Positions 1-58,039 of a stretch of DNA of 64,000 nt are shown here, piece after piece. The position numbers and the translations under genes are program-made. The stretch comes from Pararhodobacter oceanensis (GTDB lineage Bacteria; Pseudomonadota; Alphaproteobacteria; Rhodobacterales; Rhodobacteraceae). Position 1 is the first letter of the stretch. Each line of letters begins with the position of its first letter. The notes beneath the pieces are model-generated. The model was not told the DNA's origin. It did not search any database and saw only the letters and a program-made list of their open reading frames with translations. Where the stretch lies: contig NZ_QDKM01000009.1 of NCBI RefSeq assembly GCF_003076755.1, forward strand, positions 1 to 64,000, given 5' to 3'.

Positions 1-69
1 ACGCTGGAAACCGTCGCCGCCATTTGCGACACTACCTCCATGGACCCGGCGACAATCGCCGCCCTGTAA
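1..69 (+). CDS. 3' end of an unidentified plus-strand ORF
   Basis: Frame 1 is open from the first base to a TAA at 67-69 and encodes 22 residues ending in ATIAAL. It converges on the broken end of cas9. The position fits the tail of a transposase or other mobile-element gene whose insertion or rearrangement removed the rest of cas9, but the fragment is too short for me to recognise a family. It could also be a chance open frame in GC-rich DNA. Confidence 0.3.
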   Translation, partial: TLETVAAICDTTSMDPATIAAL

Positions 70-99
70 CTGCGGCCAAGCCAAGGCCGAAGAACAAAG

Positions 100-1851
100 T
101 TACACCAGTTCCTGGGACACGATCCATAACCGTAGCCGCAGACGGTTGGCTCCGGTGTTGGGCACGCCCATCTCCTCCAACTTTAGACCACGGGCAATCG
201 CCGCGTCGGTGTTCTTCTTGATGTCGCGCTGCACCTCGCGCTTTTGATCCTCGGACAGCTTCAGATCACGTGCCAGTTCCACGACAATCTCATCGGGCTT
301 GCCATAGACGGTGATGATCTGGTTCACCAAGCGCCGCAACTGGTTGAGGCCGATGTGGACTGTCGGGTTGGTGACGCGGCCATAACGGGTCACGTCGTCA
401 TCGCGTTCATCGTAACTGCCTGGTATCACGTGCCGGTCGAGGATCTGGCCGTAATACGGCAGCGCATCCAACCCCTCCCCGGTGCGACCATCTGAATGAT
501 GCCAGCCACAAGCGGCGACCGCCGCGCTATAGGGGATCACATCGGCCTCGAGTGCTGCCAGAATGCGGGTCGTGGCCGTCAGACCCAGACGTCCATAGCC
601 TTCGGGCAAGGGCGCTTTGGCGGCCTCGATGGCATTCGTGTGCTCGAGCTGATGATGCGTCTTTAGCCAAGTCACGAAAATGTCGAAGCACTCTTCACTC
701 TGCACTGCGCGAATACGCCTGACGATTTTCCACTGTGAATGACTATCCAGCGCTGACCAGCGTGGCCCAAACCTATCGGGATGCGACAGGCTGGCCCGTA
801 CCGGGTCGCAGGCAATCGCATCGCGGTTAGCGGTTTCAAGTGTAAAGCCCTGACCTTTCCGCAGTTTGATGACCTTGCCCAGTGCGGCCAGTTTCATCGA
901 CATGCCCAACATTGATTTGGTATGCACCTTGTTGTCCAGCGCATGAACGATCTGATCACGTTCCTCTTTGGTCAGGCCTCGTGCCGCTTCGCCCTGCGCC
1001 GTGATCCGCAAGGCGTTGACCGTCTCAAACAGAATGCGGCGTTGATTAAGGGGGTGGGCGCTGGGGATGCGCAGATCATCGGTGAATAGACACAGGCCCA
1101 CTTTGGGGATCTTCAGGGGCCGTTGATGAAAAATAATTGTCTCAATTTCACTGCGCAATTCATCGGTCAGCGCATCGGCGTGGCAGGCGGCTTGTGCCCG
1201 CCACAACTTGTCGAATTCCTCGGCCAGATGGCGGCGGTCGGGATAGTAATCGTATCCGGCCTCCTCCTTTTCCGCATTGTCACGCTTGGCAATTGACAGG
1301 CGGGTGCGCACGGTTGGCACCTGCCGTTCATCTGGTGCAGCGGCGCGGCGCATATGCAGAAACTCACCGTACGTCCGGGCACCCTTGGCCATCATAGCCT
1401 GATCCAGCCGCGCGGTGGCATCCTTGATCTTGCCGCTTTCATTGTCGCCGCGATCCGTTTTTCGGTTCGATTTAAAGCCTCGCCGTTGGTTCAAATGAAA
1501 CAACGCCCGGCCAAGATGTGTCAGCGGCAAAGCCTGATCCAAGCCCCGCGCCCGCAGCGCATAGGGATCCAGCAATTCCAACTCTTTGGCCACAGCTGGA
1601 TTGGCGGGCATTAAACCCACTTCAGCCATGCGCTTCATCAATGCGGCCTTGCGCCGCAAATATCGATCTCGGCGGCGGCGCTGGGCGCGGGCCGCACGGC
1701 GATCAACAGCCAAAGATGCTTTGGATTTCGGATCACGCCCATCCGAAAAGATTCGCACACCGCCATCAACAACCTCAGAGATCGAACCATTTTCGGCTGC
1801 ATAGAGCCACCAGCCAATTGAGTTCGTGCCAATATCGAGACCTAGACGCAT
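100..1851 (-). pseudogene. cas9: Type II-C Cas9, truncated before the HNH domain
   Basis: This is the N-terminal part of a Cas9 RNA-guided nuclease. From the ATG at 1851, preceded by a strong GGAGGGG ribosome site, it runs 583 residues. Visible in order are RuvC-I (GLDIGTNSIGW, catalytic Asp6), the arginine-rich bridge helix (about 50-75), a REC lobe, and RuvC-II (VVELAR, catalytic Glu near 525) with the following helix to LRLRLW. Family members then continue with a Glu-rich turn into HNH, RuvC-III and the PAM-interacting domain, for about 1050 residues in total. Here the frame leaves the family right after that Trp and stops eight codons later. HNH, RuvC-III and the PAM domain are missing, so DNA cleavage is not expected; guide-RNA binding by the remnant is conceivable. 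The open frame extends upstream to about 2001, but that part has no homology character and overlaps the tracrRNA candidate. Confidence 0.9.
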
Positions 1852-1917
1852 AACTACCCCTCCGCACATGTACGGTATCGTTGCACCGTCCGTTCGGATG
1901 CTCAACCCTAAAGTGTA

Positions 1918-1946
1918 TTGACATCTGGCTTGCAGATCGTCATTTG
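1918..1946 (+). promoter_or_regulatory. Possible sigma70 promoter for the tracrRNA
   Basis: A perfect TTGACA (1918-1923) is followed after 17 bases by CATTTG, a weak -10. Initiation would fall near 1952, at the start of the presumed anti-repeat. The -35 match is good and the -10 poor, which is common for alphaproteobacterial promoters. Confidence 0.4.
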
Positions 1947-1947
1947 T

Positions 1948-2030
1948 GTATTGTTCAAAATTCGCGGTCGAGCCGTTAACAAGCATTCGATTGCACCACA
2001 TTGAAACGCAGGCTGCGGCCTGCGTTTTTT
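1948..2030 (+). ncRNA. Candidate tracrRNA of the type II-C system
   Basis: The region between the cas9 start and the next gene contains a rho-independent terminator on the plus strand, although no protein gene runs in that direction, so a small RNA is implied. Its 5' part (TTCAAAATTCGCGGTCGAGC, 1952-1971) has the character of an anti-repeat and, from memory, resembles the complement of CRISPR repeats in Rhodobacterales type II-C loci. A short linker (about 1972-2003) with a possible nexus follows, then the terminator hairpin. Location just upstream of cas9 and opposite in direction is a known arrangement for tracrRNA. The exact 5' end is unknown, and no array is present in the window to prove pairing. 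Confidence 0.65.
2004..2030 (+). terminator. Rho-independent terminator of the tracrRNA candidate
   Basis: AACGCAGGC (2005-2013), loop TGCG, GCCTGCGTT (2018-2026), then a run of six T. The T-run is on the plus strand only, so it serves a rightward transcript. Confidence 0.85.
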
Positions 2031-2034
2031 CATT

Positions 2035-3048
2035 TCACCCTCTAATCAACTCGGCCTGCCGTTCTTGCGATACGGGCAGATAGCTGGACACGGTGGTCAG
2101 TGCGCTGTCGTGGCCGATGTTTTGCGAGAAGGCTTTGAAGGCTTCGCGGGTAGGGTAGTGGGTATCGGCCCAGCGCACCAAGGTCTTGCGAAAGCTGTGG
2201 GGGACGAAGGGGTGCAGACCTGCGCAAACAAAGGCGTCCTTGATCGCGGTGCGAATGGCCCCGGCATTGGCGTAGGGTTCGCGCTTGAGGCCAGTGACGG
2301 CAAACTGACCGTTGACGCGTTCCATCTGTGGCGGCGGGAACAAAGCATCCTCATGGCCAAACAGCAAATCATCGCGCAGATGGTGAACCCAAGCCGTGAA
2401 GCACTCCAGATACACGGGATCAACGGGCAGGAAATACGTCGTGAATGTCTTTGAGAACTTGGTACGCACATCGCGCCCATCTTGATGAACACAGCCCTCG
2501 ATCAAATCAATGCGCTTTAGCCGTAGCGATGAGATTGCGCCATCGCGTGCGCCGGTAATCATCAGAAATGCAAACAGGGCTTTGTCCCGCTTTTCAATAT
2601 CGGACCCCAAGGGCATCGCGTCAAAGGCGTGGCGGCATTGCTTGAGCGTCGGGTAGGGTGTTTCGCGGTGGGCGTGGGCGACACGGGCGTCTTTGGCGTT
2701 TTGATTGAAGTATTCGGCATCGGAATAGCTGATCCGAGACTTGTAGCCTGGTTGTCCAGCTAGCCAGAGAACGAACGCCTTGTTGGCGCGTAGAACACCG
2801 CTGATCGTCGCTTTAGACAGTGGCTTGCCGGTTCGGTGGTGTGTCGCGGCGTTTAGCTTGACCTTGAAGGCGCTGACCTGCTCAATGTGGAACCTCTTGA
2901 AAGATTTGTAACCCGTGCTGGCCTCGAATTTAAGGATGGCATCAGCCGCCCGATCCACGGTGACGGTGTCGCAGCGATTGGCATCGCGCAGATAAGCCAG
3001 ATACAGCCTCTTGATACGCTCGTTTTCTTCGTTGATTTTGCGGGCCAT
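2035..3048 (-). CDS. Tyrosine site-specific recombinase (phage-type integrase)
   Basis: A 337-residue recombinase that cuts and rejoins DNA through a catalytic tyrosine. An N-terminal SAM-like core-binding domain (about 1-125) is followed by the catalytic domain with Arg168 in TGARDG, a Lys near 197-200, the HxxR box His284/Arg287, His313 in IGHD and nucleophile Tyr323. All expected residues are present, so it looks active. The start at 3048 is chosen because AAGGA lies seven bases upstream; an in-frame ATG 15 bases earlier lacks such a site. Its stop lies five bases from the terminator of the tracrRNA candidate. It is distinct from the P4-type integrase at the tRNA end and probably belongs to a different element or moves a smaller module. 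Confidence 0.85.
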   Translation of the reverse strand: MARKINEENERIKRLYLAYLRDANRCDTVTVDRAADAILKFEASTGYKSFKRFHIEQVSAFKVKLNAATHHRTGKPLSKATISGVLRANKAFVLWLAGQPGYKSRISYSDAEYFNQNAKDARVAHAHRETPYPTLKQCRHAFDAMPLGSDIEKRDKALFAFLMITGARDGAISSLRLKRIDLIEGCVHQDGRDVRTKFSKTFTTYFLPVDPVYLECFTAWVHHLRDDLLFGHEDALFPPPQMERVNGQFAVTGLKREPYANAGAIRTAIKDAFVCAGLHPFVPHSFRKTLVRWADTHYPTREAFKAFSQNIGHDSALTTVSSYLPVSQERQAELIRG

Positions 3049-3096
3049 GGTCGATCCTTTCAAAGTGTCAGTTTCAGAGGGGGTTGTTGGTATCCC

Positions 3097-3522
3097 TTAG
3101 GGTGTTGGGTCCTCTCGTCTGGTGACATCAAAGATTTGGCCAAGTTGCGGGATTTGTGCTTTACCAATCATCCGAAAACTGGGCATCTGACAGGCCTCGC
3201 AGAGACCCATGATGCGAGCCGTTGAGCCGGGTTGGTCGATTAGATCGACAAGCATCCCCCATGGGCGGCGCGGAGCTTTGCAGGACATGCAGTAGAGCTG
3301 ATCGGGTTGCAGTTTCGCTTTGGCCTTGCCCTGTCGCGCCTCAAGATAGCTCCGCGCAACAGACCCAAGTACCAAGTATGGCCGCTGGGCCTTCAGCGCG
3401 GGCAAGTCATCGCGGGCCCACCCCCGCACCGCACCGACGGAGACGCCCAGCACTTGCGCGAGTTCAGGGATGGTGTAGGCGCGATTGGCCTTTAGAACGC
3501 GGGGATTGAGACGCTTTGCCAC
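3097..3522 (-). CDS. Small HTH protein with C-terminal cysteine pairs
   Basis: A 141-residue protein starting at a GTG preceded by GAGGAC, four bases after the stop of the AlpA-like gene, so the two are cotranscribed. Residues about 14-60 form a helix-turn-helix (YTIPELAQVLGVSVGAVRGW), like MerR/excisionase-type winged helices. The C-terminal half carries CMSC and CEAC pairs that could bind zinc. DNA-binding regulator or recombination accessory protein is the likely role; I do not recognise a named family. The open frame extends upstream through the alpA-like gene, but that part is a shadow. Confidence 0.6.
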   Translation of the reverse strand: MAKRLNPRVLKANRAYTIPELAQVLGVSVGAVRGWARDDLPALKAQRPYLVLGSVARSYLEARQGKAKAKLQPDQLYCMSCKAPRRPWGMLVDLIDQPGSTARIMGLCEACQMPSFRMIGKAQIPQLGQIFDVTRREDPTP

Positions 3523-3526
3523 GGGC

Positions 3527-3727
3527 CTAGTCCTCGCCCTCGAACAAGGCGCGAATGTCCTGAGCTTTCCAAACCGTGGTACGTGGACCAAGTTTTTGCG
3601 GCTTGGGAAATCGCCCGTCTTTGACACCTTGCCACCAAGTCGATTTGGATACGGGGATCGGGCCCGCCGGGGCAAGGATTTGAGAGAGCCTTACCAACCC
3701 AGTTTCAGGAAATATGCGATGATCCAT
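3527..3727 (-). CDS. AlpA-family excisionase/regulator
   Basis: A 66-residue protein with the AlpA layout: a short helix-turn-helix with SKSTWWQGVKDGRFPKP followed by a strand and the WKAQDIRALF helix. AlpA-like proteins activate integrase expression or act as excisionases in prophages and tRNA islands. It is first in a two-gene run with the HTH/Cys-pair gene, and its upstream region holds a cluster of palindromes. The start codon has only a distant GAGG (about 11 bases). Confidence 0.8.
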   Translation of the reverse strand: MDHRIFPETGLVRLSQILAPAGPIPVSKSTWWQGVKDGRFPKPQKLGPRTTVWKAQDIRALFEGED

Positions 3728-3795
3728 TGTGATACGACCTCATGCGTTAAGAGCTGAGGAAGTCTTTTCATGGTTCAAATCGCAGGTGGCGGAAT

Positions 3796-3872
3796 AGCGA
3801 ATTCGCTGAAACGAATAGGCGTAAGGCATTGTTAAAAAATAATAATACAGAATCTATTCGTTGGACGAATAG
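3796..3872. promoter_or_regulatory. Palindrome cluster upstream of the AlpA-like gene
   Basis: The 148-base AT-rich gap between the AlpA-like gene and the unknown gene at 3876 contains AGCGAATTCGCT (3796-3807, perfect 12-base palindrome), ACGAATAG (3811-3818) and the inverted repeat CTATTCGT-TGG-ACGAATAG (3854-3872). The same eight-base word therefore occurs three times. This looks like an operator region controlling the leftward AlpA-HTH operon. Confidence 0.5.
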
Positions 3873-3875
3873 TGA

Positions 3876-4805
3876 CTATTCCGCGTTCCAGTCGGGTGGC
3901 AAGTGTTGTGCACCAAGTTGCAGGTACTTCCTGATGGTATCCTTGGAAACACTAAGGCCCAGTTTGTCTGCAATAGATGCGATCTCACCGGGTATTGGGC
4001 TGCGGGGCTGGCTTGGGTCATAGCCATAGGCATCCGTTGCTATCGCGGTCAAAAGCTTTGCCAAGCTGACTTTTTCACGTGCGTCGGGATATCCTGCGCC
4101 GTTGTCGTCTCGTTCGACAGTAGGAACCGAACTGTTCGAACCTGGGTCGCCGACGGCTTGTTGAAGCATCGCCAAGAATTCAGGGTGTACCGGAAAATTT
4201 ACGCGCTCGATCCATCGAAGTAACGCATTCGCCTTGATTTCTTCGCTCTGAGCAAAGAGTTGGAACTCTCGTCGAAGGAGCTCTGTGTGTCGGGACATAT
4301 AGAGCGCGACGGTTTTTAGTGTGCGAGGGCGGCCAAACTGATCGTAGGGTGATGCAGCGGCGCTAAGGGAAGCGCTCGGCTCCAAGCCAACCGAGAGCCA
4401 AACAACCTCATCGAGTGACCAAAAACTTGATCTCCCCCAGTGCTCAAAATTGGCAAGATCACTCGTTCGGAAGAGAGGCGCCAAGTACCAGGTCGACAGG
4501 CCACTGAAGGCATCCAGAATCCGCCGTTTCGTGATGTCGAACCAGCTTTTTTCCGCCTCTGTTTGCGGCTTGCCTTCCCTGTCATATGACTGCGCAAGTT
4601 CTTCATCCGACATAGCGGCAAGGCGCTTCGTAATTTCGGCAAGGAAGTCATTCCGCTTTGCCAAGATCCTTGTCATTGTCCGATTGTAGTCTTCTCCAAG
4701 GGGCAAGATTTCATCAGCATCTGGTGGCAAAAAGAGCTTGCCCCCCAAACGCACCAAAACAGGACCGACGTAGGCAATGCGACTTAACGTCTTGTTCTCC
4801 GGCAT
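3876..4805 (-). CDS. Unknown island protein, 309 aa
   Basis: No family recognised. The protein is soluble, with no signal peptide or membrane segment. The middle contains aromatic-rich stretches (LAPLFRTSDLANFEHWGR, SSFWSLDEVVWLSVGLEP). The C-terminal 70 residues read like a small helical DNA-associated domain (EIASIADKLGLSVSKDTIRK) of the kind found in proteins carried beside integrases. It lies 27 bases downstream of the P4-type integrase gene on the same strand, so it may be cotranscribed. Function unknown; cargo or integrase-associated protein. Confidence 0.65.
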   Translation of the reverse strand: MPENKTLSRIAYVGPVLVRLGGKLFLPPDADEILPLGEDYNRTMTRILAKRNDFLAEITKRLAAMSDEELAQSYDREGKPQTEAEKSWFDITKRRILDAFSGLSTWYLAPLFRTSDLANFEHWGRSSFWSLDEVVWLSVGLEPSASLSAAASPYDQFGRPRTLKTVALYMSRHTELLRREFQLFAQSEEIKANALLRWIERVNFPVHPEFLAMLQQAVGDPGSNSSVPTVERDDNGAGYPDAREKVSLAKLLTAIATDAYGYDPSQPRSPIPGEIASIADKLGLSVSKDTIRKYLQLGAQHLPPDWNAE

Positions 4806-4832
4806 AGAAACCTCATCGACATTATGATGTGA

Positions 4833-6020
4833 TCAGGTTGCCCTTAGTTCTCCCAAGAATCCAGCCCACCAATCCGCAAGCCTGAGGCGTTCCTCCCAGT
4901 GCTGCCCGCGATCATAGGCGCGGCGAACTTGGTTGCTTTCGACATGGGCCAATGCGCGCTCGATGGAGTCAGGGTGCCAAAGGCCGCTCTCGTTGGCGAT
5001 GGTTGAGAAGGACGCACGAAACCCGTGCGCGGTCATTTCATCACCGCTTATCCCCATCCTGCGCAGTGCGCCGTTTAACGTGTTCTCGCTGATCGGGCGC
5101 AGGTGAGTTCGTAGGGATGGAAAAAGATAGACGCCATTACCGGTCAATCGCCGCAGCTCATCCAGCAATGCCAGCGCCTGAGGTGGCAATGGCACTTTAT
5201 GTGGCCTGCGCATTTTCATTTGTTCTGCGGGGATCGACCAAACTGCATTGGCAAAATCGATATGCTCCCACTTTGCAGAGCGCACTTCGCCGGGGCGTTG
5301 CGCTACAAGCGCGAGGAACTGCAACGCGATCTTTGTCGTCGTTTGGCCGTGGAAACCATCAATGGCGCGCAACAATCCGCCCAGCGTGGCCGGGTCTGTA
5401 ATGGCGGCGCGGTGCTTAACCGTCGGGGTGATCAACGCGTCCCGCAAGGCATAGGTCGGGTCGATCTCAGCGGCACCCGTAGCAATAGCCAATCGAAACA
5501 CTGCGCCGATTATGGCGCGTAGCCGTTTGGCGGTTTCGTAGTTCCCCTTGGCTTCGACTTTGCGCAGGCAGGCCAAAACGACGGGCGACGTAATGTCGGA
5601 GATTGGGATGTTGCCCAAGTCGGCATTGGCGAGGCCAAGTAGCCATACTGTCTTGCTCATAGTCGCCGGTGCTTTGTTCTCCTTGCGGGCTTTGACAATG
5701 TATGCGTCGGCGAACTTGGCGAACGTGTCGCCATTCGCTTCCCGAAGTTTCCGCTTTTGCTCTTTCTTGACCGCGCTGGGATCTTCGCCACTCGCAAGCA
5801 AGGCGCGCGCTTGGTCGCGAAGGCGCCTTGCGCTGGCAAGCGACACGCTTGGATATGCCCCGAACGACAGCAGCTTTTCCTTACCCTCAAAGCGATACTT
5901 CATCTGCCAAAGGCGCGACCCCGTCGGTTTGACCAAAAGGAACAATCCCTCCATGTCCGAGACTTTATAGGGTCTGTTCCGAGCGCCGAGATTTCGAATC
6001 TGTGTGTCTGTCAAAGGCAT
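4833..6020 (-). CDS. intS: P4-type tyrosine integrase (DUF4102/CP4-57-like)
   Basis: A 395-residue integrase that inserts islands into tRNA genes. It has an N-terminal DUF4102 arm-binding domain (about 1-85, with GLFLLVKPTGSRLWQMKYRF), a core-binding domain (about 97-185) and a catalytic domain with Arg242 (QRPGEVR), a Lys near 269-275, His332/Arg335 (AHGFR), His359 and Tyr369. All active-site residues are present. The gene points away from the tRNA-Thr 3' end 167 bases to its right, the classic arrangement for this family. Three copies of a nine-base word lie directly upstream. Its start codon sits two bases from the first copy, so the protein may autoregulate. The gene symbol is given at family level only. 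Confidence 0.9.
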   Translation of the reverse strand: MPLTDTQIRNLGARNRPYKVSDMEGLFLLVKPTGSRLWQMKYRFEGKEKLLSFGAYPSVSLASARRLRDQARALLASGEDPSAVKKEQKRKLREANGDTFAKFADAYIVKARKENKAPATMSKTVWLLGLANADLGNIPISDITSPVVLACLRKVEAKGNYETAKRLRAIIGAVFRLAIATGAAEIDPTYALRDALITPTVKHRAAITDPATLGGLLRAIDGFHGQTTTKIALQFLALVAQRPGEVRSAKWEHIDFANAVWSIPAEQMKMRRPHKVPLPPQALALLDELRRLTGNGVYLFPSLRTHLRPISENTLNGALRRMGISGDEMTAHGFRASFSTIANESGLWHPDSIERALAHVESNQVRRAYDRGQHWEERLRLADWWAGFLGELRAT

Positions 6021-6085: not shown

Positions 6086-6131
6086 ACATTGGATAAGGCT
6101 GAACGTCATTGGACAACCCAGCACCGCCCAA

Positions 6132-6153
6132 CCCCTTGTAACACAGGGGGTTT
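6132..6153 (-). terminator. Weak hairpin after tRNA-Thr
   Basis: Read on the minus strand, AACCCC and GGGGTT flank a ten-base loop about 35 bases past the tRNA 3' end. There is no clear T-run, so termination here is uncertain. Confidence 0.25.
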
Positions 6154-6186
6154 CGGATGTCTTTGGTGCTGTCTGGATTAAGAAGT

Positions 6187-6206
6187 GGTGCCGCTGAAGG
6201 GACTCG
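6187..6206. other. Presumed attachment site (tRNA-Thr 3' end)
   Basis: P4-type integrases usually recombine in the T-arm and 3' end of a tRNA gene, and the integrase gene lies directly next to this end. The matching direct repeat should be at the far end of the island, left of the window; I found no second copy inside it. The exact core is inferred. Confidence 0.5.
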
Positions 6207-6262
6207 AACCCCCGACCCCATCATTACGAATGATGTGCTCTACCAGCTGAGCTACAGCGGCA
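6187..6262 (-). tRNA. tRNA-Thr (anticodon CGT)
   Basis: A complete cloverleaf with encoded CCA. The acceptor stem is GCCGCTG paired with CAGCGGC, the anticodon stem CATCA/TGATG encloses the loop TTCGTAA, and the T-arm contains GGTTCGAGTCC. Anticodon CGT reads ACG. The 3' end faces the integrase and is the presumed attachment site; the gene is intact after insertion. Confidence 0.95.
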
Positions 6263-6423
6263 CTGACGCGCGGGGGTGCGTGGCAACCCTGCTCTGGTGG
6301 CGCGGTGTGTAGCACCGCGTCGGGGCCGGTTCCAGCCCCTATTTTCATGTTTTCGGATCGAATGCGCCACTATGCCTTGACGGGCCGCGACAAGCGGCGA
6401 CACACCGTGCCAGGCCGGACCGG

Positions 6424-8043
6424 TTAGAGGCCGGCGCGTCGGGTTTGTTCGAGGTCGATGGGTTTGGGCGCGGTTGGCGCGGGTTCGGCCTCGGCGGTCG
6501 GCGCGTCAGCAGGCGGGGCTGCGGATGCGTCTGCCGGCTCGGGCGTGGCCTCGGGTTCGATGGTCTCGGCCTCCTCCGCCTCGGGCTTTGCGGCAGCGGG
6601 TTCGGGGGGCTCAGGCGCTTGCAGGTCGATCTCGACCTCGGGCTCCGCGACCTGTGGCTCGGCGGCAGGCAGCGCGCCGACGATCAGCGGCAGCATCTCG
6701 GTGCCGGTGGCGCTGGGACCGGTGCTGTCGGGCGGGGATTTCCAGCTCAGCGTGTCGAACGAGGTGCAATTGTCGCAGAGCGCATGCCAGCTGGCGTGCA
6801 CATGCTGGCAATTCTCGCAGACCCATTGCGGGCCGCGCGGCGCGGTCAGGGCGCGGGCCAGCCAGCCGCGCACCACGGTGTCGGGCGAGCCTTCGCCGCG
6901 CTCGATCGCGGCCATGATGGTCATCACCCGCTGGCTGGGCAGGCGCTCATGCAGATCGCCGATGGCGCGGCGGGCGGCGGGGAAATCCTCGGCCGCGATC
7001 AGGAGTTCAGCGCGGGTCTGGCGGGCTTCGTCGCCCTCGACCATGGACAACAGGCTGTCGAAACGGCGCACCCGTTCGGCGGCAGTTTCATCCGCTTCGA
7101 TACCGGCGAAGGCGCGGGCGAGTTCGGGATGCGGCTGGGCTTTCCAGGCGCGGCGGATCACCTTGGCGGCGGCGCGTTTCTTGCCGCGCGCGGTCAGCGC
7201 CTCGGCGGCCATGACCGCGGCGGGGACCAGCTCGGGCGAGTGTTTCGCCGCCTCGATGGCGAGATCCTGCGCCACAGATTCGCGTCCGGCTTTCGCCTCG
7301 GCCTGCGCCTGTTGCAGGGTCAGGACCGCGTCGCGGCGTTTGTAGACCGGCTTGGGCAAGCGGCCCGAACGCGAGGTGTCCAGAAGCGTGCGGCGCGCGC
7401 CGGACCAGTCGCCGGCCTTGTTTTGCAGCGCCATCAGCGTGTCTTGGGTCTGGCCGTGACCGGGGCGCAGGGTCAGCGCGGTTTCGGCGAGTTTGCGGGC
7501 GGTCTCGGGGTTACCGGCCTCGATCTGCTGCTGCATCAAGCCGCGCACGCCGACAAACCGCGCGCGGTCCTCGTCGAGCAGGCGTTTGAAATAGGTCTCG
7601 GCCAGCGCTGTGTCGCCCTTGGCCTGCGCCGATTGGGCGATCAACAGGTTGGTAAGTGTCCGGTTTTCCAGTAGTTTCTCGGCGCTGCGGGCTTTGGTCA
7701 GCGCCTTGTCACCATCATCGGAGGCGAGCGCGATGAAGCCTTCGGTGAGCGCGTCAAAGCCGCGTTTGCGCCGCGAGCGCTGGAAATAGCGGCTGATCGC
7801 GGTTTCGTCGCCGTTGATAAAGCGCAGGGTCGCGACCAAGAGGCCGGAGAGTTTCAGGAGCAGCCAGAGCGCGCCGAGCAGGAGGAGCGCGGCGAGCGCC
7901 ATCTGGATCGGACCGAGGGTAAATTCGACATTGGCAAAGGCGATGCGCAGCCCTGCGTCACTACTCATCAGGGCTTCGGCGCCGAGGGTCAGACCGGCGA
8001 CAACGGCCAGAAACAGAACGATTTTCAGAACGGTCCAGATCAT
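6424..8043 (-). CDS. hemY: HemY-like membrane TPR protein
   Basis: A 539-residue inner-membrane protein with two N-terminal membrane segments (about 4-24 and 46-75), the HemY N-terminal domain (INGDETAISRYFQRSRRKRGFDALTEG), and TPR-like helical repeats to about residue 330. A Cys-containing patch (CENCQHVHASWHALCDNC, about 405-422) could bind metal. The C-terminal tail of about 90 residues is low in complexity (Ala/Pro/Glu). In proteobacteria hemY-like genes sit with late heme genes, as here with hemD two genes upstream, but the protein has no proven enzymatic role. It starts just after the mitofilin-like gene and is surely cotranscribed with it. Confidence 0.85.
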   Translation of the reverse strand: MIWTVLKIVLFLAVVAGLTLGAEALMSSDAGLRIAFANVEFTLGPIQMALAALLLLGALWLLLKLSGLLVATLRFINGDETAISRYFQRSRRKRGFDALTEGFIALASDDGDKALTKARSAEKLLENRTLTNLLIAQSAQAKGDTALAETYFKRLLDEDRARFVGVRGLMQQQIEAGNPETARKLAETALTLRPGHGQTQDTLMALQNKAGDWSGARRTLLDTSRSGRLPKPVYKRRDAVLTLQQAQAEAKAGRESVAQDLAIEAAKHSPELVPAAVMAAEALTARGKKRAAAKVIRRAWKAQPHPELARAFAGIEADETAAERVRRFDSLLSMVEGDEARQTRAELLIAAEDFPAARRAIGDLHERLPSQRVMTIMAAIERGEGSPDTVVRGWLARALTAPRGPQWVCENCQHVHASWHALCDNCTSFDTLSWKSPPDSTGPSATGTEMLPLIVGALPAAEPQVAEPEVEIDLQAPEPPEPAAAKPEAEEAETIEPEATPEPADASAAPPADAPTAEAEPAPTAPKPIDLEQTRRAGL

Positions 8044-8047
8044 CGTG

Positions 8048-9415
8048 TCAGTCCTCGTCGCGGGTCAATTGGGTTTGCATCTCGGCCAGCGCATCCAGCG
8101 CGGCCAGTCGGGTCTCGGCCTGCGCGCGCCAACCGGCCATCGCGGCGGCGGGCGCCTCGGGCAGCGCCTCGAGTTCACCAAGCGCGGCGGTGATCTCGTT
8201 TTGCCGCACCAGCGCCTCGGCGCGCGACAGGATCGCGTCGGTGCTATCGCCGTCACGCGGGGCGAGCGAGCGCGCCCCGGTCTGGTTGCGCAGGAAGGTC
8301 AGCAGGCGGTCGGCGACCGGCGCATCGGCGGGCGGCGCATCGGCATTGAGCGCTTCGCGGGCGGCGGGGGCGAAGGCGGCGCGCAGACCGGGGGCGGTGA
8401 TCAGACCATCGGCCAAAGGGGCGAGCGCCTCGGGGGTTTCGGTGGCCGCATTGAGCGTGGCCAGCGCCCCGGGCGCGGCTTCGCCCGAATCGGCGGCGGC
8501 GATCAATTCGGCGAGCGCGGCGCGGGCGGCAATGCGTTCTTGCGCGGCTTCGACATCGGTCTCGCGGGCGTTGAGCGCTTGCGCCTGTGCCTCGACCTCG
8601 GCGCGGGACTCGGCCAGCGCGGCATCGACGGCGGCCTGCGCCTGCGCGGGGATACCGGCCTCAAGCTGGGCGATGCGGGTGTTGACCGGCGCCAGCGCGC
8701 TGCCGATGGCGGCGTTGAGGTCGGCGTTGTTGAGCCGTGCCTCTTCGAGCGCGGCGATGCGGGCTTCCAGCGGTGCGAGGTCGGTCTCGGCCTGCTCCAA
8801 GGCGGTGACACGGTCGGTCAGATCAGGGGCGGCCTCAAGCGCGGTGAGGCGGTCAGACAGCGAGGTCAGATCCGCGGAGGGCGTGCCGCCGGTGTTGGCC
8901 TCAAGCGCGGCGATACGGGACTGCAGATCGCCGGAGGCATTGCGCCAGCCCTCGGGGAAAACCGCCAGCGCTGTGAGCCCGCCGATGCCTGCGGCGAGAA
9001 CGCCACCGATGATCATATTGCCCGCGCCTGCGGTTTTGGCGGCCTGCGCAGGGAGCGGGGCGGGAACCGGCGCGCGTTCGGCCTCGGGGGGCTGGGTGGT
9101 ATCCGTGGTGTCTGCTTCGGTGTCTGTGGCCTCGGCTTTGGCGCTATCTGCGGCGTCATCCGCTGGCGGTTCTTGCGGTTCGCCATCCTGCAGGGTCACG
9201 TCTTCGGTCACATCATGCGGCACATCCAGCGCGGCGTCGGTGTCAGCTACGGTATCGGCGTCAGGGCTGGTGTCAGCACTGGTGTCTGCGGTGGCGTCGG
9301 TGGCGAAGACATTGGTCACCTCGGTCGACTCACCTCTGGCCTCAGCTTTGGCGGCATCGCTTTTTGCAGTCTGTGCGGGCCTGCGCGTGCCGCGATTGCC
9401 GTCGGTGTCTGACAT
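8048..9415 (-). CDS. Mitofilin-like inner-membrane protein (COG4223)
   Basis: A 455-residue protein with an acidic, Thr/Ala/Asp-rich N-terminus, one membrane segment near 133-153 (MIIGGVLAAGIGGLTALAVF), a long coiled-coil region (about 165-300) and a C-terminal helical domain resembling mitofilin/Mic60. Alphaproteobacterial homologues near heme genes shape intracytoplasmic or inner membranes and contact the outer membrane. The start at 9415 is chosen for GGAGG five bases upstream. It lies between hemD and hemY in one leftward operon, the same order as in many Rhodobacterales. Confidence 0.8.
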   Translation of the reverse strand: MSDTDGNRGTRRPAQTAKSDAAKAEARGESTEVTNVFATDATADTSADTSPDADTVADTDAALDVPHDVTEDVTLQDGEPQEPPADDAADSAKAEATDTEADTTDTTQPPEAERAPVPAPLPAQAAKTAGAGNMIIGGVLAAGIGGLTALAVFPEGWRNASGDLQSRIAALEANTGGTPSADLTSLSDRLTALEAAPDLTDRVTALEQAETDLAPLEARIAALEEARLNNADLNAAIGSALAPVNTRIAQLEAGIPAQAQAAVDAALAESRAEVEAQAQALNARETDVEAAQERIAARAALAELIAAADSGEAAPGALATLNAATETPEALAPLADGLITAPGLRAAFAPAAREALNADAPPADAPVADRLLTFLRNQTGARSLAPRDGDSTDAILSRAEALVRQNEITAALGELEALPEAPAAAMAGWRAQAETRLAALDALAEMQTQLTRDED

Positions 9416-9461
9416 TCCATCCTCCAGATAGCCGCGCCCCAAGTCCCGCGGCGGGTAGGTT

Positions 9462-10229
9462 TTACTTATCGGTTACGGGGGCTTGCCTCAAGCCATCCGC
9501 CGCAATCCGCGACATCACATCCGCGATGGCCGCCATCATCCCCTCGGCATCCGGCGTGCGCGCAATCTGGCACAAGGCGCGCAACTCCGGCGGCAGATTA
9601 TCCGCACAGGCCGCGCTGATCGCCACCATTCGCAGGTCTTGCAACTCTGCGCCCTGCAACTCTTGCATGAAACGCAGCGCCGCGCGCGGGGAAAATAACG
9701 GCACCACACAGACCTGCCCCGCGGGACGGGCCTGCAATTGGGTCAACACCGATGGCGGCCAATTGGTTGCACGCGCCTCATAGACTTGCACACTGCGCGG
9801 CTCCATCCCCTCGGGCCCGAGCGCCGCGACCATGTCGCGGGCCAGATGCACGCCGTGAGCATGAACCAGCGGCCCCTCGGGGCGGCGGGCGATCAGATAG
9901 GCGACCATCGCCACCGCATCACCGCCGCAGTTATAGGCCACAAAGCCAGCGTCTTGCGCGGCCTGCATCGTCGCCGGGCCGACGCAAAAGGCGGGCAGAC
10001 CGGCGATCCCAGGCATATCCTTGGCCACCTGCGCCACCGCTGGCACCGCATTGACCGAGGTCAGCAGGAGGCCGCGTGCGCCCTTGAACACCGCAGGATC
10101 AAAGGCCAGCGGCACGATCCCCGAGAGCGGCGCGATCAGCAGATCATGCGGCGGGCACTGCGTTTGCGCCTCGGCGGCGAAGTGATGCGCTTGCGGCAAC
10201 GGGCGGGTGAGCAGGAGTAACGGGCGCAT
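9462..10229 (-). CDS. hemD: Uroporphyrinogen-III synthase
   Basis: A 255-residue HemD that cyclises hydroxymethylbilane to uroporphyrinogen III, the branch point to heme, siroheme, cobalamin and bacteriochlorophyll. The two-lobed fold is recognisable from LLLTRP at the N-terminus, LLLTSVNAV (about 51-59), [16 protein letters not shown] (about 82-97) and VPLFSPRAA plus VAISAACA in the second half. Sequence conservation in this family is low, so the call rests on these motifs and on the hemY/mitofilin neighbours. It is divergent from tsaD, sharing an 88-base promoter gap. Confidence 0.85.
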
Positions 10230-10317
10230 GAACCTCAACTTAACGGCGGCCGCGCCCATTGTCTGCGACGCCCCCCGATGTTACCCCCAGCGCCGAACCA
10301 TGCGCAACCGGGTGCAG

Positions 10318-11397
10318 ATGACCAGAGTGCTGACTTTATTGGGTATTGAATCCAGCTGCGACGATACCGGCGCGGCACTGGTCCGGCATGCGCCGGGCGC
10401 GGCGCCGCAGATATTGGCCAATTGCATCGCCGGACAGACCGAGCTGCACGCGGCCTACGGCGGTGTGGTCCCCGAGATTGCCGCCCGCGCCCATGCCGAG
10501 AAGCTGGATCTGATGGTCGAGGCGGCGCTGGCGGAGGCCGGGCTGGGGCTGGCGGATATTGACGCGATTGCGGTGACCGCAGGGCCGGGGCTGATTGGCG
10601 GGGTGCTCTCGGGCGTGATGCTGGCCAAGGGGTTGTCACTGGCCAGTGGCGTGCCGCTGATCGGGGTGAACCATCTGGCGGGCCATGCGCTGACCCCGCG
10701 GCTGACCGACCAGCAGGCGTTTCCCTATCTGATGCTCTTGGTCTCGGGCGGGCATTGCCAGTTTCTGCGCGTGGACGGGCCGGATGATTTCACCCGTCTG
10801 GGCGGCACGATTGACGATGCGCCGGGCGAGGCCTTTGACAAAACCGCAAAACTGCTGGGTCTGCCGCAACCGGGCGGGCCGTCGGTGGAGCGCGAGGCGC
10901 TGGCGGGTGATCCCGCGCGCTTTGCCTTCCCGCGGCCGCTTTTGGACCGTGCGGGCTGTGATCTGTCATTTTCGGGGCTGAAAACCGCACTGATGCGTGC
11001 GCGGGATGCTCTGGTTGCCGAGCAAGGCGGGCTGACCCAGCAGGACCGCGCCGATCTCTGCGCGGGATTTCAGGCGGCGGTCGCCGATGTGCTGGCCGAG
11101 AAATCGCGCCGTGCGCTGGCGCAATGCCCCGATATCACCGGCTTTGCGGTGGCGGGCGGGGTGGCGGCAAATAAATCCCTGCGCGCAGCCCTTGAGCGGG
11201 TTGCCGGTCAGGTGCCGTTTCTGGCGCCGCCCCTCGCGCTCTGCACCGATAACGCGGCGATGATCGCCTGGGCGGGGCTCGAGCGGTTCCGCGACGGTCA
11301 CCGCGACGATATGAGCCTTTCCGCGCGGCCTCGCTGGCCGCTTGACACGACTGCGCCCGCCCTGATCGGATCAGGCAAACGTGGCGCCAAAGCCTGA
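10318..11397 (+). CDS. tsaD: tRNA N6-adenosine threonylcarbamoyltransferase
   Basis: TsaD transfers the threonylcarbamoyl group from TC-AMP to A37 of ANN-decoding tRNAs, with TsaB and TsaE. The 359-residue product starts [17 protein letters not shown], the family N-terminus, and shows the metal-site histidines in [10 protein letters not shown] and the phosphate-binding [21 protein letters not shown]. The C-terminal ASKHA motif [10 protein letters not shown] and CTDNAAM are intact. The open frame extends 37 codons upstream, but the start at 10318 gives the normal family length. Confidence 0.95.
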
Positions 11398-11405
11398 GGA
11401 TATCT

Positions 11406-11678
11406 ATGCCCCTATTCGCCATGATCTGCACCGATAAAGCCGACCACGAGCCCCTGCGCAAAGCCAACCGCGAGGCGCATCTGGCCTATCTGAACGAGAC
11501 CGGCTGCGTCACCTATGCGGGCCCGTTTCTGGACAATGGCACGATGACCGGCTCTTTGGTGATCATCGAAGCCGCTGACAAAGCCGCCGCCGAGGACTGG
11601 GCGGCCAATGACCCCTATGCGCTGGCGGGATTGTTCGCCAAGGTGCGCGTTGAAGAATGGAAGAAGGTGATCGGCTGA
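11406..11678 (+). CDS. YciI-like protein
   Basis: A 90-residue ferredoxin-like alpha/beta protein of the YciI family (PLFAMICTDKADHEPLRKANR, HLAYL, GPFLDNGTMTGSLVIIEA). Family members dimerise and bind small molecules at a conserved His/Asp pocket; enzymatic roles are mostly unproven. Eight bases separate it from tsaD and its stop overlaps the next start (TGATG), so the three genes form one operon. Confidence 0.9.
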   Translation: MPLFAMICTDKADHEPLRKANREAHLAYLNETGCVTYAGPFLDNGTMTGSLVIIEAADKAAAEDWAANDPYALAGLFAKVRVEEWKKVIG

Positions 11679-12091
11679 TGCGTTACTGGTTGATGAAATC
11701 CGAGCCCGATGTGTTCAGTTGGGATGATCTGGTCGCCGTGGGCGATAAGGGCGAGGAATGGGACGGCATTCGCAACTATCAGGCGCGTAATTTCATGCGC
11801 GAGATGGAAATTGGCGATAAAGTGTTCTTTTACCACTCGAATATCGGGCTTGAGGTGGTCGGGATTGCAGAAGTCTCGGCAACGATCCACCCCGATAGCA
11901 CCACCGAGGATCCGCGCTGGGAATGCGTCGATATCCGCGCGGTGAAACCGCTGCCGCGTTCGGTGACGCTGAAAGAGGTCAAGGCGACGCCCGAGCTGGC
12001 AAATATGTCGCTGGTCACCTCGATGCGCCTCTCGGTGCAGCCGGTGACGCCCGAGGAATGGGAAATCGTCTGCAAAATGGGCGGGCTGTAA
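11678..12091 (+). CDS. EVE domain protein
   Basis: A 137-residue single-domain EVE protein. EVE is a PUA-like fold that is thought to bind modified bases in DNA or RNA. Recognisable parts are YWLMKSEPDVFSWDDL, WDGIRNYQARNFMREM, GDKVFFYHS and the C-terminal SLVTSMRLSVQPV. It starts inside the stop of the YciI gene (TGATG), which fixes the start. Its neighbour tsaD, a tRNA modification gene, fits a nucleic-acid role. Confidence 0.9.
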   Translation: MRYWLMKSEPDVFSWDDLVAVGDKGEEWDGIRNYQARNFMREMEIGDKVFFYHSNIGLEVVGIAEVSATIHPDSTTEDPRWECVDIRAVKPLPRSVTLKEVKATPELANMSLVTSMRLSVQPVTPEEWEIVCKMGGL

Positions 12092-33061: not shown

Positions 33062-33065
33062 TGAT

Positions 33066-33124
33066 GCTATCCTTCCAGATAAGCGCCCCTCGTTGGGGAG
33101 GGGTGTCCCACGGATGGGGATAGC
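33066..33124 (-). ncRNA. serC leader RNA motif
   Basis: Directly before serC the minus strand folds into a closing stem GCTATCC/GGATAGC (33124-33118 with 33072-33066) around a hairpin CCCCTC-CCCAAC-GAGGGG. The 3' arm of the closing stem covers the AAGGA ribosome site four bases before the ATG. This matches, from memory, the serC RNA element described upstream of serC in Alphaproteobacteria. Sequestration of the ribosome site suggests control of serC translation; the ligand or factor is not known to me. Confidence 0.75.
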
Positions 33125-56239: not shown

Positions 56240-58039
56240 TCAGCCGCCGACAAAAGCCTCGACACCGGCGGCGACCTGCCCGACAAAATCCCTGCCGATC
56301 CCCGCCGCATTGCCCTCATCGGTGTCGATATGCATCTCGGTAAAGGCATTGGGCTGCACCCGCACCAAAGTGCGCGCGAAGGTCAGCGCGCGGTCGCCGG
56401 TGCCAATGCGCACCCGCACCAATTGCCGGTCTTCCAGCCCCATCGCTTCGGCGTCGGCGGGGTTGATATGGATGTGCCGCGCCGCGACGATCAACCCGTC
56501 GGTATCCAATTGCCCCGCCGGTCCGACCAAGCGGATCTCGGGCGTGCCCTCCAGATGCCCCGAATCGCGCACCGGTGCCTCGATGCCCAGCGTGAAACTA
56601 TCGGTGCGCGAGACCTCGATCTGGGTGCGCGGCCGCAGCGGGCCAAGGATCGCGACATTCTCCAAGGTGCCCTTGGGCCCGACCAGCGTGACCCGCTCAT
56701 TGGCCACCCAATTGCCCGGCTGGCGCAGCGGTTTCGCCTCGGTGAGCTGATAGCCCTCGCCAAACAGAGCCGCCAAAGAGTCCGCGCTCAGATGCACATG
56801 ACGGCCCGAGACCGCAATCGGGATCGGCCGCGCCGCAGGCATGGGGCGGGCGAGATGCGCGGCGACTTCACGCGCGATCTGCAGTTGCTCGGCGGTTTCG
56901 GTGACGATCACCGCCACCTTCGAGCCGTAGGCCTGAATATGCGGCGCCGCGTAATTGTCCAGATCGGGCGCAAGGTTGCGGTCGTGGTCCAGCCGCAGCC
57001 CGAAGAATTGCAGCCCGTCGCAAATCCGCCGCCGCATCGAGGCCGAGTTCTCGCCGATGCCGCCGGTGAAAATCACCCCGTCAACGCCGCCCATCGCCGC
57101 CGCATAGCCGCCGATATATTTGCGCACGCGGTAAGCGTAGAGATTGATCGCCAGCTGCGCCTGTGCATCGCCCGCGGCGGCGCGGTCCTCGACATCGCGC
57201 ATGTCGGCGCTGCCGGTCAGCCCCTTGAGCCCGCTTTCATAGTAGAGATCATGCTCGATCTGCGCGACACTCAGGCCCAGTTCGCGCTGCAGATAGCCAA
57301 AGGCTCCCGGGTCGATATCGCCCGAGCGGGTGCCCATCACCAGCCCCTCCAGCGGGGTCAGCCCCATCGAGGACTCAAGGCTTTGCCCCAAATTGATCGC
57401 GCAGACGCTGGCGCCATTGCCCAGATGCACCGAGATCAGCCGCAGATCACCCAGCGGCTGCCCCATCGCCTGCGCGGCGCGTTCGGCGACATATTGATGC
57501 GAGGTACCGTGGAAGCCGTAGCGTCGCAGCCCCGCCTCGCGCCACGCCTGCGGCACCGCATAGGTGGTGACGCGCGGCGGGTTATCCAGATGAAAAGCGG
57601 TGTCAAACACGCCCACCTGCGGCAGATCGGGCCAGACCGCGCGCGCCAGCCGCACGACATTCAGATTGGCGGGGATATGCAGGGGCGCCAGCGGGGTGAG
57701 CGCCTCGATCCCCGCCAAAGTCTCGGGGTCCAATGTCGCCGGCCCGTCATGCGCCTCGCCGCCGTGGACAATCCGGTGGCCGATGGCCTCGATCCCCGTG
57801 ACCCCCCAATCGGCGAGTAGGCCCGGCACCGCAGCGGTGGCGGCGGCCAGATCGGCATAGGGGGCGGTGAAATCCTCGCTGCGGTCCGCGGCTTGCAGAT
57901 GCACCGTGCAGCCGCCGTCGCGGAACCGGCCAAAGCCGCCCTTGAGCCGCTGCACGACCTGCGCTCCGGCCTCGCCTCCGGTATCGAAAACGCCGATTTT
58001 CAGGCTGGAACTGCCCGCGTTGAACACCAGAATGCGCAT
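56240..58039 (-). CDS. Acetate kinase fused to PduL-type phosphotransacylase
   Basis: A 599-residue single frame with two enzymes. Residues 1 to about 390 are an acetate/propionate kinase: ILVFNAGSSSLKIGVFD, GHRIVHGG, VFDTAFH, RYGFHGTSHQYV, ISVHLGNGASVCAI, GTRSGDIDPG and VIFTGGIGENSA. From residue 406 to the end is a PduL-like phosphotransacylase: IAVSGRHVHLS (His414, His416), AARHIHINP (His522, His524) and EMHIDTDEGNAAGI (His570), the zinc and CoA/phosphate residues of that family. It could interconvert acetyl-CoA and acetate within one protein. No stop, frameshift or start site separates the parts. The start at 58039 has AGGGG six bases upstream. An MFS transporter gene precedes it on the same strand. 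Confidence 0.9.
   Translation of the reverse strand: MRILVFNAGSSSLKIGVFDTGGEAGAQVVQRLKGGFGRFRDGGCTVHLQAADRSEDFTAPYADLAAATAAVPGLLADWGVTGIEAIGHRIVHGGEAHDGPATLDPETLAGIEALTPLAPLHIPANLNVVRLARAVWPDLPQVGVFDTAFHLDNPPRVTTYAVPQAWREAGLRRYGFHGTSHQYVAERAAQAMGQPLGDLRLISVHLGNGASVCAINLGQSLESSMGLTPLEGLVMGTRSGDIDPGAFGYLQRELGLSVAQIEHDLYYESGLKGLTGSADMRDVEDRAAAGDAQAQLAINLYAYRVRKYIGGYAAAMGGVDGVIFTGGIGENSASMRRRICDGLQFFGLRLDHDRNLAPDLDNYAAPHIQAYGSKVAVIVTETAEQLQIAREVAAHLARPMPAARPIPIAVSGRHVHLSADSLAALFGEGYQLTEAKPLRQPGNWVANERVTLVGPKGTLENVAILGPLRPRTQIEVSRTDSFTLGIEAPVRDSGHLEGTPEIRLVGPAGQLDTDGLIVAARHIHINPADAEAMGLEDRQLVRVRIGTGDRALTFARTLVRVQPNAFTEMHIDTDEGNAAGIGRDFVGQVAAGVEAFVGG

Follow-up and report, generated by a model that had tools for sequence, protein, structure and literature searches.

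A putative type II-C tracrRNA gene divergent from a cas9 gene probably split by an IS256-family insertion in Pararhodobacter oceanensis

The window analysed here is a stretch of 64,000 nucleotides from Pararhodobacter oceanensis, and its base 1 is the start of a contig, C9. The 5' part of a cas9 gene lies on the minus strand next to this contig start, and a candidate tracrRNA gene lies upstream of it on the plus strand. A long minus-strand open reading frame (100-2001) spans the region; it is cas9 with the open frame continuing upstream of it. The rest of the CRISPR locus opens another contig, C2, on which coordinates are given for the stretch L009. The features are as follows.

1-124, no strand: end of an IS256-family element, cut by the contig start; five genomic copies
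125-132, no strand (second copy at L009 128-135): target-site duplication of 8 bp (shared word 9 bp) at the IS boundary
125-1851, minus strand: 5' part of cas9 (TIGR01865, 290 bits; profile positions 2-570 of 1070)
1918-1923, plus strand: -35-like box TTGACA of the putative tracrRNA gene, seen in the sequence, without a clear -10
1948-1981, plus strand: anti-repeat, by near-identity to the array repeat and duplex energy
1953-2036, plus strand: tracrRNA homology region, by a covariance model of 53 relatives
1983-1994, plus strand: nexus-like hairpin, conserved helix 1 in 53 relatives
2003-2030, plus strand: rho-independent terminator hairpin and T tail, by terminator scan, fold and helix 2
L009 (contig C2) 3006-3700: region of the CRISPR array; the repeat first in transcription (the last repeat along the contig) is degenerate, with 7/36 positions changed

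An earlier, sequence-only reading had pointed to a terminator, an anti-repeat-like stretch and a TTGACA box at this site, and all three are present there. Of the three terminator-like sites that the terminator scan found in window 1-6000, the one at 2003-2028 (+) has the longest stem, with 11 pairs and a T tail. Shuffled sequences contained a mean of 7.2 such sites versus these three. Chance terminator-like sites are thus common, and the case for a tracrRNA rests on evidence other than the scan. The folding energy of region 1953-2031 is -30.2 kcal/mol (z -4.3), and 0/200 shuffles were equally stable. The free fold of this region pairs part of the anti-repeat with the stretch just downstream; when the RNA is folded by itself, its lowest-energy structure therefore lacks the short nexus hairpin of the family alignment. 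Upstream, TTGA[C/A] was found 32-37 nt 5' of the core in 46/57 homologous loci (28-40 nt allowed), versus a frequency of 3% in mononucleotide-shuffled upstream sequences. The promoter scan revealed no plus-strand site at the tracrRNA gene and no convincing -10 box there, and the homologous loci resemble each other only weakly in the -10 region; -10 boxes of Rhodobacterales promoters are often poor. We consider that the gene is presumably transcribed.

The genome's own CRISPR array carries a repeat that matches this region. A search of the genome with window 1840-2040 returned the region itself and ten sites on contig C2, spaced 65-66 nt, each of which matches window 1952-1975 (+) at 23/24 positions. 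The array lies near the start of C2 and has 11 repeats of 36 nt and 10 spacers. Window 1952-1975 is the reverse complement of its crRNA-sense repeat, with 23/24 positions identical, and the predicted duplex between the repeat (GTTG end first) and window 1944-1985 has an energy of -48.1 kcal/mol, versus -29.9 kcal/mol for the best of 1000 mononucleotide shuffles. Thus, the pairing that the sequence-only reading had proposed to look for was found. When 9138 stretches of the window were scanned for duplex formation, the tracrRNA site was the best; the energy alone is not decisive, because a GC-rich stretch at 56967, unrelated to the tracrRNA, gave -41.2 kcal/mol. We also counted changed terminal repeats over 50 arrays; excluded from the count were arrays within 70 nt of the end of their contig, those of under 3 repeats and those whose repeats were masked. 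The changed repeat was at the end far from cas2 in 25 and at the cas2-side end in 2.

Homologous loci were collected by a cas9 scan of named genomes, which gave at least 80 loci with a best segment 48-80% identical. Sixty of the 80 loci listed had a called array and the start of cas9 and were taken; L101 was dropped because the repeat called there was short, and the set came to 59 relatives plus the window. In L119, L132 and L144 the best repeat match was on the other strand. These three loci were omitted from the comparison of anti-repeats with repeats, so that the test set comprised 57 loci (56 relatives plus the window); the covariance model later placed the tracrRNAs of L119 and L144 divergent from cas9 and that of L132 on the cas9 strand. 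In the 57 loci, the 17-nt anti-repeat core has a mean of 15.7 matches to the repeat of its own array versus 12.35 to those of others. Own-repeat matches came to 895 versus a permutation maximum of 760, with 0/10,000 permutations as good, and for the 41 distinct pairs only they came to 630/697 versus a maximum of 541; both permutations ignore relatedness. The L118 row of this test is not the tracrRNA of that locus, which the model places elsewhere. Each anti-repeat among the 57 loci thus tracks the repeat of its own array.

The alignment of tracrRNA genes consists of 53 relatives that were chosen as divergent from cas9. L084, L118 and L148 were dropped for lack of the word AACAAG, and the invariance of this word in the alignment is due to that selection. 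The nexus-like and terminator helices are paired in 93.1% of cases in the 53 relatives, versus 33-53% when partners are slid by 1-3 columns. Helix 1 (nexus-like) is paired in 99.4% of cells with both-side changes in 2/4 pairs, and helix 2 (terminator) in 90.6% of cells with both-side changes in 7/9 pairs. Over the 53 relatives, 9/13 pairs show both-side changes, and none of the 500 shuffles reaches the covariation score; two of the five covariation measures are not above shuffles, since the number of both-side-changed pairs was as high in 23/500 and that of further pair types in 151/500.

A covariance model built from these 53 relatives, with the window omitted, matches 1953-2036 (+) with 96.5 bits and E 5.3e-26 over model positions 1-84 of 84, which answers the call of the sequence-only reading for a covariance search with II-C tracrRNAs. 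The next-best match in the window scores 16 bits and is confined to the terminator half, and the next-best in the whole genome scores 18 bits and is an array repeat; the tracrRNA is the sole strong match. Outside the model set, 26 of the 27 named loci (80 loci listed) gave a full match, and the one miss, L102, is on a contig that begins inside cas9. Among the 26, the tracrRNA is divergent from cas9 in 25 and on the cas9 strand in one. This one, at L132 8660-8743 (+) in Sphingomonas soli, is the only same-strand tracrRNA among the named loci listed. A tracrRNA was thus placed in 79/80 loci listed, divergent in 78, of which 53 had been chosen as divergent. Seven further loci gave a full match in L044 and L049 and none in L043 and L045-L048. 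Rfam at gathering scores has no match at the tracrRNA site and reported no tracrRNA in the window, and the present analysis yields a covariance model and a placed set of tracrRNAs for alphaproteobacterial II-C systems.

Own-array repeat pairing and the model of relatives bear out the proposal of a tracrRNA at 1948-2030 (+). We regard this stretch as a putative type II-C tracrRNA gene whose sequence is intact, an unexceptional representative of a known class. It is very probable that this is the tracrRNA gene of a type II-C CRISPR-Cas system, divergent from cas9 and about 100 nt upstream of it, and that cas9 itself is split by an IS256-family insertion.

The nuclease was said to be absent; it turned out to be interrupted, and its remainder opens contig C2. 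From its start, C2 carries the rest of cas9, cas1 (1680-2591), cas2 (2588-2932) and the array. A Cas9 profile search of the genome found two pieces, one in the window (profile positions 2-570) and one on C2 (566-956), and no uninterrupted or other cas9 in the assembly. Compared with a 1083-aa relative, the two pieces cover residues 1-583 and 581-1082, and therefore no loss of cas9 sequence is seen. Both parts retain open frames. Among the open reading frames of the window start and of L009 1-3000 on C2, there are no cas genes in addition to cas9, cas1 and cas2 with the array; the gap at the IS is unassembled. The parts on C9 and C2 would together make up a single II-C system whose guide-RNA side is complete.

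The starts of C9 and C2 each carry one end of the same element. Beyond these ends, both contigs read on into a shared 9-bp word; 8 bp of it were taken to be the target duplication. The ends themselves are inverted repeats related to each other. Each end has five genomic copies, all at contig ends and identical over the 124 nt compared. Nine plasmid matches have ends 92-96% identical; an IS256-family transposase is annotated in four, 'Transposase' in one and none in four, and the interior of the element is unassembled here. We infer that C9 and C2 are joined through the element, the C9-IS-C2 junction being unassembled. The insertion point in cas9 is, as we take it, near the start of the HNH part. 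It looks as if cas9 was split by a simple insertion and not by loss, and the identity of the IS copies suggests that the insertion is probably recent. An insertion element, not loss, would have broken the nuclease gene, while the assembly cut the locus in two; the wider value of this is modest.

Self-targeting was considered as a cause of cas9 loss and rejected, as no convincing self-target was found in the own genome. Comparing the array with the genome (E up to 10) gave 25 matches, including the array and the anti-repeat. The best of the rest are two: one, at C2:550490, matches a repeat together with its edge over 31 nt (87%), and the other, at C3:422720, agrees at 20/21 positions with the last bases of spacer 2 plus two bases of the repeat. 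The latter is unconvincing as a self-target because the matched end is read as PAM-distal, as judged from the array orientation. Spacer 1 at up to 3 mismatches matches only itself in the genome, and 0/10 spacers match the window and L009 at up to 7 mismatches. Against phages (44 records), there was no significant match, with a lowest E of 0.8. The end of spacer 2 (L009 3119-3139) with its edge resembles four Rhodobacter phages over 23 nt at 95.7%, which is not significant (E 9). Against plasmids, the lowest E among the matches listed (40 of 61 records) is 0.02, and the matches listed are mostly Pseudosulfitobacter, in ten joined pieces, which were taken as repeats.

Tyrosine recombinase genes at 2035-3063 (-) and 4833-6020 (-) adjoin the tracrRNA gene, an AlpA-like regulator gene at 3527-3727 (-) lies between them, and a tRNA-Thr gene at 6186-6261 is nearby. 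Further away, a serC leader RNA (RF00517, 73.9 bits) is at 33062-33113 (-). Relatives of the first recombinase were found in 4/100 cas9 loci and those of the second in 12/100, in fetched stretches in which some genomes are counted twice. This suggests that II-C loci are carried by mobile DNA. A tRNA-borne island was also considered and rejected. No clear second copy of the tRNA-Thr end (6125-6215) was found; other matches reach at best about 30 nt at 90%, and an island boundary is therefore not shown. Relatives of Cas9 at 63% are borne on plasmids; there are matches in 52 plasmid records, of which 37 are from Pseudosulfitobacter, and plasmids of Pseudosulfitobacter pseudonitzschiae carry relatives of the Cas9 of the window.

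In type II systems in general, as outlined in PMC8730458, the tracrRNA pairs with crRNA repeats and forms the guide of Cas9. In the ancestral system of this genome, the anti-repeat would have paired with each crRNA along its repeat part. This duplex, with the nexus and terminator hairpins, would have been the guide in Cas9. In the present genome, the tracrRNA gene, cas1, cas2 and the 11-repeat array look intact, and an IS256-family element appears to sit inside cas9. Judged from the DNA, the guide-RNA side is probably still made and whole Cas9 is not, and interference would be dead.

Other explanations would read the same region differently. A neighbouring transcript's terminator might stand by chance beside a repeat-like stretch, and both the frequency of chance terminator-like sites and the stretch that reached -41.2 kcal/mol in the duplex scan lend this some plausibility. 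However, the tracking of own repeats, the conserved helices, the model matches and the near-identity to the Pelagivirga sediminicola gene, taken together, speak against it, as does the end-to-end match of a model built without the window; we regard coincidence as having a negligible chance of being correct. It is unlikely, too, that the population is mixed or unstable, with some cells lacking the IS in cas9 and the tracrRNA serving a working Cas9. Such a state would agree with a break at a contig end created by a repeated element and with the open frames kept in both cas9 parts, but the assembly contains no uninterrupted cas9, and an IS end with the repeated word is present at the start of each contig.

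Retention of the RNA for a role of its own after Cas9 loss, for example with an N-terminal Cas9 remnant, would draw on two other loci in which an intact-looking tracrRNA gene lies beside a broken cas9: L112 (97.8 bits) and L168 (89.0 bits). In L112 (Aliiroseovarius sp. S1339, 8816-11939), the cas9 frame stops at 518 aa and is followed by two open reading frames judged by eye to be transposase-like; the stretch showed neither an array nor a match to cas1 or cas2. In L168 (G053, 6226-8721), cas9 lacks about residues 186-619 and the cas1 match covers residues 1-100 only, and the repeat word is absent from the 18 kb. Apparently, cas9 was broken by transposase-like open reading frames in the former and by deletion in the latter. 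However, retention is explained equally well by damage that is recent and a target of 84 nt that decays slowly, and the IS copies here are identical over the 124 nt compared; we consider a role of its own very unlikely. That roseobacter tracrRNAs outlive Cas9 through such a gained role, with the window, L112 and L168 as three separate examples, is likewise highly improbable. The reading that we prefer remains an ordinary II-C tracrRNA gene beside a cas9 gene split by an insertion.

Our literature search, mainly of open-access papers, found none on this locus, and comparison is with related systems. The closest tracrRNA is that of Pelagivirga sediminicola (L080), which differs from the window copy at 1/77 nt; together with those of Roseovarius sp. 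A-2 (L072) and Yoonia vestfoldensis (L076), the range is 1-2/77 nt. These three II-C tracrRNAs share with the window the anti-repeat core, the nexus, the terminator and divergence from cas9. In the three loci, cas9 is found across the whole N-terminal query, whereas cas9 of the window is split by the IS. In the II-C plan set out in PMC12080349, new spacers are added at the last repeat, and changes accumulate in the repeat that is transcribed first. The C2 array fits this plan; as in the arrays with a changed extra repeat described there, its first-transcribed repeat is altered, at 7/36 positions, as judged from the sequence. According to PMC5006608, the II-C locus of Riemerella anatipestifer has a putative tracrRNA upstream of cas9 and likewise comprises three cas genes, an anti-repeat upstream of cas9 and an array after cas2. 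That locus, by the same source, has a 47-nt repeat and a 16-nt anti-repeat, whereas here the repeat is 36 nt and the anti-repeat is long.
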